Source: a virus
Reading direction: 5' to 3' (one strand)
IMG/VR virus record: IMGVR_UViG_3300037430_000014
Location: 1 to 47,004 of that record
Length of the DNA: 47,004 bases
Part shown: positions 3,391-6,551 of the stretch, in pieces
How the letters are laid out: each line of letters opens with the position of its first letter
Position numbering within the stretch: position 1 is the stretch's first letter
Program-made: the position numbers and the translations under genes
The notes under the pieces: model-generated
Databases searched by the model: none
The model's input: the letters and a program-made list of their open reading frames with translations, nothing else
Told to the model about the DNA's origin: nothing

Positions 3391-3859
3391 CCACTTCTCG
3401 ACAGCCTGCAAGGCCGCGGGCGTCCGAGAGGAGACCTTCGAGAACTGGCTCGACAAGGGCACGCGCGGGGATCCGAAGTACGTGGCCTTCGCCAAGGCGA
3501 TCGAGAAGGCCGAAGCCGACAGCGAGGCGCTCGCCGTCGACATCATCCGCGCCGCCGCGACCGGGCTCGTCACGTCCGAGCGGTTCATGGACTCGGACGG
3601 GTTCACCTCGACGAAGACCACCGAGGTCAAGGACTGGCGCGCCGCCGCCTGGCTCCTCGAGCACCGCTTCGGGATGCGCTGGGCGGCTGCGCGGAAGCTG
3701 AAGTTCTCCGGCGCGCTCTCGACGCGGCAAGAGGTGATCGTGCACGACGCTGGCGACGCGGGCGACATGGTCGAGTTCGACGACGAGGGGAACCCGGTGA
3801 TCATCGGCGACGAGAACGACTACGAGGGGCCGGAGAGCGACGAGGAGGGCGAGGAGTGA
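3281..3859 (+). CDS. terS: Terminase small subunit
   Basis: The 192-residue protein is the likely DNA-recognition subunit of the packaging motor. Residues 20-75 contain the typical small-terminase pattern: a helix-turn-helix (ACKAAGVREETFENWLDKG) followed by an acidic helix with AFAKAIEKAEAD, as in many phage TerS proteins. The C-terminal 40 residues are strongly acidic, as in tails that contact the large subunit. An AAGGA site lies about nine bases before ATG 3281. One small gene separates it from the large terminase. The assignment rests on the HTH pattern and the position next to terL. Confidence 0.8.
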   Translation: MAYRKGPKKNEPRKRTKQERLTPFVQKLLETAIACGNHFSTACKAAGVREETFENWLDKGTRGDPKYVAFAKAIEKAEADSEALAVDIIRAAATGLVTSERFMDSDGFTSTKTTEVKDWRAAAWLLEHRFGMRWAAARKLKFSGALSTRQEVIVHDAGDAGDMVEFDDEGNPVIIGDENDYEGPESDEEGEE

Positions 3860-4119
3860 GGGACCAATCGAAGGGCCTGAAGAGCCGGATCGCCGCGCGC
3901 GACGAGAAGGGCCAGATGCAGGAGGACCGCCAGCTTCTGGCCGAGCTCGAGCTCGCCAACGTCGCCTACGACTGGGAGAAGGACGTGCTCGAGGAGGTGA
4001 GCCGGCGCCTCTACCACGAGCAGCGCGCGCTTTTCGAGCACCAACGACGCTCGGCGCGCGAGATCATCGGCAGGCGCCGCGGGCGGCCGGGACCGCCGCG
4101 CATCGCCGACGACGAGTGA
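3856..4119 (+). CDS. Small hypothetical protein between terminase subunits
   Basis: The 87-residue charged product is predicted to be almost entirely helical (QEDRQLLAELELANV, VLEEVSRRLYHEQRALFE), with an Arg-rich C-terminus. It starts with GTG overlapping the small terminase stop and ends in a GTGA overlap with the large terminase. It may act with the packaging complex because of this position; no family is recognised. Confidence 0.65.
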   Translation: MRDQSKGLKSRIAARDEKGQMQEDRQLLAELELANVAYDWEKDVLEEVSRRLYHEQRALFEHQRRSAREIIGRRRGRPGPPRIADDE

Positions 4120-6551
4120 GCTCGCCGCTCTCGATCTCGCGCCAGTACCACGCGCATGGCGCGATCAAGTACCTGTTCCGCTGGTTGAACGGCACCGAGA
4201 TGCCGCCCGAGGAGGCGATGATCGTCGGGCCCGCGGGCTGCGTTGCGGGCGAGACGGAGCTGTGGGATCCGATAGCTGGGCGTGGACGCCGGATCGACGA
4301 ACTGTGCAGGAGTGGAACTAGGCCGTGGGTGCAGACGCTCAACGGCCCTGAGCTCGCCACCGTCCCCTTCATGAAGGGGATTGCCCCGCTCTATCGCGTC
4401 ACGCTGGCGTCTGGGGCTTCGTGCCTGGCAACAGCCGACCATCGCTTCCTCGCGCGCGGCCCTTCGTCGTGCCGGGTCTACGTCCGAGTTTCCGACCTCG
4501 AAGCGGGGATGGCCCTCGCTTCGTTCCCGTCAGCTCGTGCCGCAGGTGCTCTCCGTTCGACGAGAACAGCTCCAGGTTCTCCGGACGGTTGTCACAACGA
4601 ACGCCGTTCACGTGATGAACGACCTCTTTTCGCGCCAGGGCGCGGCCGAGCTTCTTCTCCATCACCAGACGATGCTCGCGGACGCAGCCCTTGTTGTTCG
4701 CTTCTGGATGCTCAGGCTTCCACACGAGAACGTAGTCATCCGCATCGCGGTGTCGCCCGCCCCGCCAGGCTGGATTCAAAGGACCAACCTTCGACCGTCC
4801 CCGCATCTTCGGCCGCTTGCTCCTATCAATCTGGATCCCGTGGCGCTTCAAGTACTCTGCAACCCGACCAAGCGACGTGCCACCTACGGCCTGGGCAATC
4901 ACGGCCAGGGTCGCACCCTCGCGAGCGAGTCGCACCACCGTGGCGTGATGCCTGTGACACGCAGACTCAGGCCCCTTTCGCGTCTTCGAGTCCATCGCCT
5001 GATTCTACGCTTCTGTGGGACGAGATTGTTGATATCCGCTACGAACGGACAGACGCATACTTTGATTTGAGCGTGCCCGTCGCTGGGCATTATGTTGGCG
5101 ACGGCATTTACAGTTCAAACACAGGAAAGTCATTGGGCGTGGGCAAGTTTATTTGGGGCTTCATGTCGCGGTGGCCTGGCACGCGCGTGCTCGTCCTGCG
5201 CAAGACGCGCGTCTCGCTCAATGACTCGTGGCTCGACACCTTCGAGAACGAGGTGCTGTTCCCGAGCCACCCCGCCGTTGGGACGCTGCAGCGCCAGAAC
5301 CGCACGCGCTACACGCACGAGAACGGCTCCGAGCTGATCCTCGCGGGCATGGATCAAAAGCGGCGGCTTTTCTCGACGCAGTACCACATCATCTACGTCA
5401 ACGAGATGACCGAGCTCACGGAGCAGGAGTGGATGAGCCTGCACCGCGCGTTGCGCCGCCCTGGCGGGCCGGGCTGGCACCTCTTGATCGGCGACGCGAA
5501 CCCCGATGCCGAGTTCCACTGGGCCAACCGTCGCTTCCCCGACCCGATGCCGTACGGGAAGCGCCGCGCGACGCGCTCGGGCCGCATGCGGATCCTGTCC
5601 TGGCACAAGGACAACCCGATGCTGTCGGAGAGCGAGCAGGGCCGCCAGTACCTGCACCGGCTCGATAAGCAGCTCGTCGGGCACATGCGCGACCGGCTCT
5701 TCCTCGGCCTGTGGCGCACGGCCTCGGGCCTGATCTACCCGATGTACAACTCGCGTGTGCACCTCCAGACCGGGCGCCTCGCCTGGCAGATGGACGCCTT
5801 CGACAAGCCGCTCCGCGGCGAGCCGGTGACGCTCGAGCTACCCGACCTTGGCTACTCGACCGAGCTCAACTGGTTCGACGGCGGGGTCGACTTCGGATGG
5901 ACGAAGCCCGGCGCGCTCGAAATCTGGGGGCACGACTCCGAGAAGCGCGGATTCCGCACCGCCGAGGTATACCGCAAGGGCAAAGACCTCGATTGGTGGG
6001 GCGACTGGGTCGCGGACCTCTACGAGGAGTTCCGAATGCGCTACGTCGTCGCCGACTCGGCCGAGCCGCGCTCGATCGAGCACTTGAACGACCACCTGGC
6101 CGAGCGCGGGGTGCCGCGGATCGTGCGCGGGGTCGAGAAGCCCAAGCGCAAGATCATCATGTTCAACGCCGTGCGCGAGGCGATGCGCGCGAAGCACGAC
6201 GGCGTGCCCTCGTTCTTCCTCCTGCGCGACTCGCTCCGCGGCGGGCGTGACCCGGACCTCGACAACGACTCCATGCCCTGCACGCTGGAGGAGGAGATCC
6301 CGGGCCTCGTGGTCGCGAGCCCGCGAGAGACGGAACGGGGCGAAGTACACTTCGAGGAGGAAGACGAGGCGTGTCCCAACCACGGCTGCGACGCGGCCGG
6401 CTACGAGCATCTCGAGGCATGGAAGAAAGACCTGAGCAAGCGCAAGGACCGGCCGGAGCGCCCGATCGAGGCGGCCTTCGAGGCCCTGAAGGAGTCGGCC
6501 TACGACCTGGCGAAGAAAGAGCGCCTCTCGCGCGGGGAGGACCGCGACTAG
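4116..6551 (+). CDS. terL: Terminase large subunit interrupted by an intein
   Basis: This 811-codon frame encodes the ATP-driven DNA packaging motor and nuclease. The Walker A motif is split: GPAG (residues 38-41) is followed by a 294-residue intein (42-335), then TGKS (336-339). Removing it gives a 517-residue protein, normal for TerL. Downstream are a Walker B-like segment (IIYVNE, 425-430), a coupling segment (GDANPD), and nuclease acidic residues in VDFGW (Asp592) and VVADSAEP (Asp647). The GTG start overlaps the previous stop. Until the intein splices out, the ATP-binding loop is broken, so packaging should depend on splicing. Codons right after the intein are richer in A/T than the rest of the gene. 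The identification as TerL is firm. Confidence 0.93.
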   Translation: MSSPLSISRQYHAHGAIKYLFRWLNGTEMPPEEAMIVGPAGCVAGETELWDPIAGRGRRIDELCRSGTRPWVQTLNGPELATVPFMKGIAPLYRVTLASGASCLATADHRFLARGPSSCRVYVRVSDLEAGMALASFPSARAAGALRSTRTAPGSPDGCHNERRSRDERPLFAPGRGRASSPSPDDARGRSPCCSLLDAQASTRERSHPHRGVARPARLDSKDQPSTVPASSAACSYQSGSRGASSTLQPDQATCHLRPGQSRPGSHPRERVAPPWRDACDTQTQAPFASSSPSPDSTLLWDEIVDIRYERTDAYFDLSVPVAGHYVGDGIYSSNTGKSLGVGKFIWGFMSRWPGTRVLVLRKTRVSLNDSWLDTFENEVLFPSHPAVGTLQRQNRTRYTHENGSELILAGMDQKRRLFSTQYHIIYVNEMTELTEQEWMSLHRALRRPGGPGWHLLIGDANPDAEFHWANRRFPDPMPYGKRRATRSGRMRILSWHKDNPMLSESEQGRQYLHRLDKQLVGHMRDRLFLGLWRTASGLIYPMYNSRVHLQTGRLAWQMDAFDKPLRGEPVTLELPDLGYSTELNWFDGGVDFGWTKPGALEIWGHDSEKRGFRTAEVYRKGKDLDWWGDWVADLYEEFRMRYVVADSAEPRSIEHLNDHLAERGVPRIVRGVEKPKRKIIMFNAVREAMRAKHDGVPSFFLLRDSLRGGRDPDLDNDSMPCTLEEEIPGLVVASPRETERGEVHFEEEDEACPNHGCDAAGYEHLEAWKKDLSKRKDRPERPIEAAFEALKESAYDLAKKERLSRGEDRD
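4239..5120 (+). mobile_element. Intein in TerL Walker A motif, with antisense endonuclease insert
   Basis: The element runs from Cys42 to Asn335 of the terL frame. Block A is CVAGETEL. Block B is ATADHRF with Thr106 and His109. Block F is YFDLSVPVAGHYVGDG, and the end is IYSSN followed by Thr as the +1 residue. The residue before the last Asn is Ser rather than the usual His. N- and C-terminal splicing parts are about 98 and 37 residues. Between them (about residues 140-298) the sense translation is Arg/Ser/Pro-rich and unlike any endonuclease, because the opposite strand encodes an HNH protein. The sense frame nonetheless stays open throughout. Splicing competence is inferred from the conserved blocks. 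Confidence 0.9.
4399..4995 (-). CDS. HNH homing endonuclease encoded antisense inside the intein
   Basis: The 198-residue protein is a full-length HNH endonuclease of the type found free-standing in phages. Residues 15-55 form a helix-turn-helix-like DNA-binding part (TLAVIAQAVGGTSLGRVAEY). Residues 85-100 have the usual DDYVLVWKPEHP lead-in. The HNH core is 105-155: VREHRLVMEKKLGRAL, EVVHHVNG (His127, His128, Asn130), CDNRPENLEL (Asn136, Asn140). The tail is basic. The core maps to about 4531-4698, just outside the N-terminal splicing domain; only the tail overlaps block B. ATG 4995 lies close to the start of the C-terminal splicing domain (about 5010). No strong Shine-Dalgarno is visible. 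It would cut intein-less terL alleles, by analogy with known homing nucleases. Confidence 0.88.
   Translation of the reverse strand: MDSKTRKGPESACHRHHATVVRLAREGATLAVIAQAVGGTSLGRVAEYLKRHGIQIDRSKRPKMRGRSKVGPLNPAWRGGRHRDADDYVLVWKPEHPEANNKGCVREHRLVMEKKLGRALARKEVVHHVNGVRCDNRPENLELFSSNGEHLRHELTGTKRGPSPLRGRKLGRRPGTTKGRARGSDGRLLPGTKPQTPA

Follow-up and report, generated by a model that had tools for sequence, protein, structure and literature searches.

The window, by which we mean the whole stretch of DNA that was analysed, is a 47,004-base IMG/VR virus record with a GC content of 0.69. Its terL gene is a single open reading frame on the + strand (4116-6551; 811 amino acids, zero stops), and the assignment as TerL is supported by phrog_3717 (E=2e-8) and TIGR01547 (E=3e-10). 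The frame contains an intein that splits the Walker A P-loop of TerL (GPAG/C...N/TGKS, slashes marking the intein boundaries), and a gene for an HNH nuclease lies on the opposite strand of the same DNA (Table 1). Pfam Intein_splicing (PF14890) matches the TerL frame with E=4e-5 and the intein alone with E=3.5e-6; NCBIfam intein_Nterm matches TerL residues 42-112 with a score below its cut-off. The GC content of the intein is 0.62, compared with 0.69 for the genome.

Table 1. Features of the interrupted terL gene and of the strand opposite the intein
Feature	Positions	Strand	Basis
TerL N-extein, 41 aa, ending with the first half of the P-loop (GPAG)	4116-4238	+	CGPAGTGKS in the intein-less relative Thermobifida phage P1312
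Intein of 294 aa (Cys1 to Asn294) with Thr at +1	4239-5120	+	PF14890; invariant residues; AlphaFold/Foldseek mini-intein fold
N-terminal splicing half (intein residues 1-96) with blocks A and B	4239-4526	+	pLDDT ~92-98
Sense linker, stop-free, predicted disordered	4533-5003	+	pLDDT mostly 37-50; sense dN/dS in close homologue pairs
C-terminal splicing half (intein residues 257-294) with blocks F and G	5007-5120	+	pLDDT 94-98
TerL C-extein, starting TGKS, stop codon included	5121-6551	+	Open reading frame; phrog_3717; TIGR01547
HNH nuclease gene (very likely a homing endonuclease), 198 aa, ATG at 4995	4399-4995	-	HNH_3; phrog_20891; invariant catalytic positions
Helix-turn-helix-like DNA-binding region (predicted), HNH residues 12-51	4843-4962	-	AlphaFold helices, pLDDT ~90; Foldseek GcrA, weak E
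HNH_3 nuclease core, HNH residues 108-146, with EHRL, EVVHH and DNRPENL	4558-4674	-	Pfam; homologue alignment
Sigma-70-like site 94 bp upstream of the HNH start, TTGAAC-18-CATAAT	5089-5118	-	Candidate only; one found, shuffle mean 0.1

The intein meets the class 1 criteria of C1, TADH at 65-68, N294 and T+1. It is also, as the class requires, inserted in frame into a host protein that is intact outside it, and precise intein-less alleles exist. C1, H68, D276, Y285 and N294 are invariant in our alignment of 16 inteins. The criterion of a penultimate His is not met by the window copy, which has Ser293 (...IYSSN/T, 5111-5119, + strand); most homologues have His. The missing His does not exclude class 1, because mycobacteriophage class 1 inteins without it are mentioned in the literature (PMC5050341), and Ser293 may slow C-terminal cleavage of the window intein. 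The HINT fold criterion is met as a model prediction: in the AlphaFold model, residues 1-96 and 257-294 have pLDDT mostly above 90 and the intervening part has ~37-50, giving confident splicing halves and a disordered linker. Foldseek matches this model to the NpuDnaB and Mtu RecA mini-inteins (E 3e-7 to 2e-6), with which the profile search concurs. The criterion of an in-frame endonuclease is not met; the sense linker, predicted to be disordered, contains no nuclease domain in a Pfam search. A group I or group II intron was also considered and is rejected, since a search of both strands of 3800-5600 against Rfam gives no match at E values up to 0.1.

The protein encoded on the opposite strand matches HNH_3 above the cut-off (E=3.4e-11) and phrog_20891 (E=5e-26), and H108, E124, H128, N136, N140 and H150 are invariant across 21 divergent HNH homologues. 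Its AlphaFold model shows four helices in an HTH-like arrangement at the N-terminus and a confidently predicted HNH core; against solved structures, Foldseek returns weak matches, with the GcrA DNA-binding domain on top and I-HmuI among them. The HTH-like helices, and the NUMOD1/NUMOD3 modules that are present in some relatives (loci L004 and L040), meet the criterion of a separate DNA-binding module. We consider it very likely that this protein is a homing endonuclease of the HNH_3 type, its cleavage and homing being inferred. The conserved HNH domain sits between both splicing halves, and the last ~43 codons, a low-complexity tail, overlap the block-B coding half. An earlier note, made without database searches, had placed splicing half-motifs at TerL residues 42-112 and about 299-335 and had described the HNH gene as filling exactly the gap between them; the motifs held (with Pfam Intein_splicing, and with NCBIfam below cut-off), whereas the exact fit failed in detail because of the overlapping tail. 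Failure to confirm the HNH similarity by profile search, an outcome that would have refuted the note, was not observed, as HNH_3 and phrog_20891 both confirm it.

A Shine-Dalgarno match (p<=0.1) precedes the best antisense start in 28 of the 56 lineages described below, where 10% would be expected; the example in locus L038 is AGGAGGAGAAT-ATG. No clear Shine-Dalgarno was found at the HNH start of the window, and the promoter scan that gave the sigma-70-like candidate of Table 1 found none upstream of the HNH gene of Pectobacterium phage Ymer (L009). We therefore regard independent translation of the nuclease, in the absence of transcript data, as likely for the family, given the Shine-Dalgarno matches in half of the lineages, and as unproven for the window copy. 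With Ser293 and without a clear Shine-Dalgarno, the window copy may splice or express poorly. The suggestion of the earlier note that the nuclease can be expressed independently of terL thus holds in part: the signal is present in many homologues and absent from the window copy.

When the HNH protein is held fixed and its codons are redrawn, 5.6 sense stops are expected in the window and none is seen (probability ~0.004). At 69% GC this is only suggestive, because one further antisense phase is also open by chance (3.3 stops expected). Since the window alone would not settle the question of dual coding, relatives were sought. A direct search of viral contigs gave no relatives of the whole window TerL. 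The window HNH was compared by tblastn with phage records, and viral and bacterial contigs were then scanned with the retrieved HNHs, using an alignment of a six-row HNH subset as the full 21-row alignment was too divergent. The best tblastn matches are to a cluster of phages of Pectobacterium and Dickeya. Isolates with the arrangement include Pectobacterium phages Ymer, Abuela, Sabo, Koroua, Amona, Taid and Pappous, and Dickeya phage Setonix. In Ymer, the HNH gene is antisense within a 754-aa 'hypothetical protein' at the terL position, which carries P-loop intein blocks; Setonix and Taid have the same layout. The arrangement is also present in Pseudoalteromonas phage PHS3 (L060, 2700-4826).

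We classified 170 loci, of which 133 have an HNH gene antisense to a frame bearing an intein N and/or C block. These 133 loci, drawn from three database searches and defined by the block test, amount to ~56 non-redundant lineages, and GC among the homologues spans 0.29 to 0.69. The phase of the overlap is identical in all 133, with HNH codon positions 1/2/3 opposite sense positions 1/3/2. Both splicing blocks were found at 77 loci, 76 of which have one open sense frame, so that a split intein or a broken host gene can be rejected. The sole exception, L165, has one TAA in the sense frame at ~3487, outside the HNH match, which could be either a real inactivation or a sequence error. The arrangement is not confined to the P-loop. 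A second, Walker-B-like site of TerL is occupied in L004/L005 and L034/L035, and at L040 (2811-8342, - strand) an antisense-HNH intein, its HNH bearing a NUMOD3 motif, lies outside terL in a large DEAD/Helicase_C protein. The single terL frame of L005 (3698-7591, - strand; IMG/VR 3300034062_002324) apparently holds three inteins: one at the P-loop with an in-frame LAGLIDADG endonuclease, one with an antisense HNH at the Walker-B-like site, and a mini-intein near the C-terminus.

The homologues show that both strands are under selection, the nuclease being under purifying selection and the sense linker being kept open. Over 9,553 codons in the 56 lineages, stops in antisense phases 0, 1 and 2 number 378, 460 and 0, against 404, 394 and 338 expected from synonymous redraws. 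Avoidance is absent from 33 free-standing HNH controls, in which 118, 146 and 140 stops are observed and 124, 153 and 149 expected. The constraint reaches the nuclease protein itself, because Phe followed by Ile, Met, Thr, Asn or Lys makes a sense stop unavoidable in this phase: such pairs account for 0 of 165 Phe residues in the antisense HNHs and for 18 of 57 in the controls. Synonymous choice shows the same pressure, Ile preceding a codon that starts with A being encoded by ATA in 52 of 52 cases in the antisense HNHs and in 26 of 58 in the controls. Substitutions in 15 close pairs fall on HNH codon positions 1/2/3 in the numbers 147/128/500. In the HNH frame, dN/dS is ~0.1-0.3 in most close pairs and reaches ~0.6 in one with six changes; in the sense frame, it is near or above 1 in most scorable pairs, with a maximum of ~2.7. 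The overlap makes a simple dN/dS approximate, but the direction is not in doubt. The substitution pattern and the contrast in dN/dS indicate that the HNH is the selected protein and that the sense linker need only be readable.

Sampling by HNH was to be avoided, and we therefore also defined a sample by a splice junction, searching 2.9 million viral contigs for DNA encoding HHNSGKS (HHN/SGKS). This returned 98 contigs, 90 of them inteins, and 63 of the 90 have an antisense HNH. The phase is again identical (63 of 63). Over 12,574 codons it contains 0 stops, whereas the two alternative phases contain 522 and 513. Same-strand HNHs of this family were looked for in the 90 inteins and none was found, and a same-strand HNH in HHN/SGKS inteins is rejected on that basis. 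The remaining inteins that were examined include mini-inteins or inteins with an in-frame LAGLIDADG endonuclease, several apparently in other proteins. The sample is limited to a single junction motif, includes near-copies and contains some truncated inteins.

The proposals of the earlier note on the coding arrangement fared well against these data. An intact antisense HNH inside an unsplit intein held, as a recurrent arrangement and not a single oddity, and so did the claim that the sense frame is kept open, on the strength of stop depletion across homologues (0 versus 338 expected). The search of phage and metagenome sequences that it had proposed as a check was positive, both in the 133 loci and in the junction sample. 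It had also named two outcomes that would count against it, a sense frame broken in homologues and an HNH frame decayed everywhere; the former was not observed except at L165, and the latter was not observed at all, the HNH frame being conserved.

Empty sites can be identified. Klebsiella phage HSE3 and Escherichia phage KW1E_UTAR read KHPAFVAGFGTGKSQT (KHPAFVAGFG/TGKSQT), and the 288-aa intein of Ymer is inserted between the G and the T of this site. The site used in the window is an uninterrupted GPAGTGKS in two intein-less relatives, Thermobifida phage P1312 and Streptomyces phage Dagobah. HNHs that are 60-64% identical (up to 64% over 231 aa) are found in exteins without BLAST similarity to each other. 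Support for homing is only indirect and homing is thus inferred, from this disjunct distribution and from the related HNHs in unrelated exteins. In a tree of HNH sequences the antisense HNHs cluster (5 label changes compared with 27.6 in shuffles), and a single clade of all 58 antisense HNHs is not rejected (p-AU 0.63), its likelihood being better than that of the free search. The tree rests on 132 columns and is weakly resolved, with few well-supported branches. The simplest reading, and a likely one, is a single origin in one fixed phase, though this is not proven.

We suggest that the element is very likely a mobile intein of the TerL P-loop with an antisense homing endonuclease at the usual place of nuclease insertion; its splicing, antisense transcription, cleavage specificity and homing are inferred. 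On this model, the terL strand would be translated straight through the intein, the splicing halves would fold into a HINT domain around the disordered linker, and the intein would excise and restore GPAGTGKS. The opposite strand of the linker DNA would give an HTH-HNH nuclease, which would cleave the P-loop sequence of terL genes that lack the intein, and the element would be copied in during repair. The splicing half of the mechanism rests on motifs and fold, and the cutting and homing half on knowledge of the family and on distribution. The computed results are the open frames, the common phase, the avoidance of stops, the purifying selection and catalytic residues of the nuclease, the empty sites and the occurrence of related elements in unrelated TerLs.

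The main alternative is that the HNH targets the intein itself, having invaded a mini-intein at the place of endonuclease insertion, and moves between mini-inteins instead of carrying the whole intein into empty terL. Mini-inteins ending HHN/SGKS without an HNH are present in the junction sample, and at the methylase locus L073 an antisense HNH stands alone, with no recognisable intein blocks, which shows that insertion of such HNHs does not require an intein. However, the difference between close relatives is the entire intein with its HNH and not the HNH alone, and the constant phase, together with the single clade that is not rejected, argues against repeated separate invasions; we consider this alternative unlikely. 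The HNH might instead be a packaging factor that works with TerL and not a homing enzyme. HNH proteins near terminases can be needed for packaging, as is reported for those of the HK97 gp74 type encoded next to terminase genes, and the HNH described here is nearly always within terL. Relatives with the same TerL and no intein, however, lack an HNH at this place, the HNH also occurs in the DEAD/Helicase_C protein of L040, and homing HNHs typically carry HTH and NUMOD modules such as those seen here. We find a packaging role very hard to reconcile with these observations.

It could also be argued that the antisense HNH is a decaying relic and that the sense frame is the sole functional one. The sense frame is indeed open, and the window HNH has a low-complexity C-terminus and no clear Shine-Dalgarno. 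Against this, the catalytic residues are invariant over the 21 divergent homologues, and the HNH frame has a low dN/dS, whereas that of the sense frame approaches or exceeds 1 in most pairs. A decayed HNH is rejected on the substitution pattern and the catalytic conservation, and we regard the relic explanation as very improbable. Finally, long antisense open reading frames are common in GC-rich DNA such as the window (GC 0.69), and the HNH frame might have arisen by chance. The profile-level similarity to HNH proteins, the same arrangement at GC 0.29-0.42 and the 0 stops in 9,553 codons speak against this, and a chance frame, rejected on the low-GC homologues and the free-standing controls, is all but excluded.

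The preferred reading, an intein with an antisense homing endonuclease, can be compared with known systems. Canonical bifunctional inteins share the two splicing halves, the insertion into a conserved active-site motif and the placement of the nuclease in the linker; canonical LAGLIDADG or HNH inteins, however, have the endonuclease within their own reading frame, as a domain of the intein protein, whereas the nuclease of the window intein is a separate protein encoded antisense. In the reported 'fractured genes' (Dassa et al. 2009), a split intein likewise has a separate, free-standing nuclease gene between its splicing halves. The host gene is broken in two there, but the terL frame of the window passes unbroken through the nuclease gene. 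Homing endonuclease genes can also lie on the antisense strand of nuclear group I introns, which likewise puts an antisense nuclease within a self-removing element. Such introns need no dual coding, because intron RNA need not be translated, whereas the whole sense frame must stay open here. The nearest published case is the ShiLan domain (Arsenault, Gosselin and Gogarten 2025, PMC11855218), an HNH inserted out of frame into a DNA methylase of phages. It resembles the present element in that the HNH is hidden in an insertion, the host frame is open and homing is inferred; the HNHs are distant relatives. The ShiLan HNH lies on the strand of the host gene in another frame, with no intein splicing domain according to its authors. 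The window HNH is antisense and inside a recognisable intein, so the ShiLan-type criterion of a same-strand HNH without a splicing domain is not met. At L073 (1523-4489, - strand; a Nitrospira MAG contig), an HNH_3 gene is antisense in an open N6_N4 DNA methylase frame with the same overlap phase, and no intein blocks were found; it is an antisense counterpart of the ShiLan insertion. L077 (75-3587, + strand; a Dehalococcoidales MAG contig) has two in-frame HNH domains in a 1171-aa protein without intein blocks.

The intein and the HNH are both of known kinds, and it is likely that their arrangement is new. In the literature that we searched, which left out most subscription journals and the preprint 10.1101/2025.01.02.630785, no published intein with an antisense endonuclease was found, and within that scope the suggestion of the earlier note that the arrangement is undescribed held. 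That preprint, on Actinobacteriophage inteins with a non-canonical architecture, could describe something related. A bolder reading, which we also think probable, is that mobile inteins with an antisense endonuclease form a class of their own, abundant and so far undescribed, founded by a single antisense capture of an HNH in one fixed phase. The class would have spread, in diverse phages, through TerL P-loops, a second TerL site and a helicase, would form the majority at HHN/SGKS in viral metagenomes, and would persist by strict dual coding, the nuclease sequence being constrained because stops in the opposite frame must be avoided. The arrangement is a third way for inteins to carry the enzyme inferred to spread them, besides having it in frame or having none. 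It is also a clean natural case of antisense dual coding, one strand encoding a selected enzyme and the other merely staying open, so that the price of the overlap can be measured. Nuclease expression would be separated from that of the host gene, which may bear on the timing of homing relative to the late packaging genes.

The arrangement appears to be common and yet to have been overlooked, since where two genes overlap gene callers retain only one. Annotation errors consequently arise for terL, a common phage marker gene. In the record of Pseudoalteromonas phage PHS3, a truncated TerL and an HNH gene are annotated; the true TerL frame is open through the HNH gene to the N-extein, and the terL of this phage is therefore misannotated.
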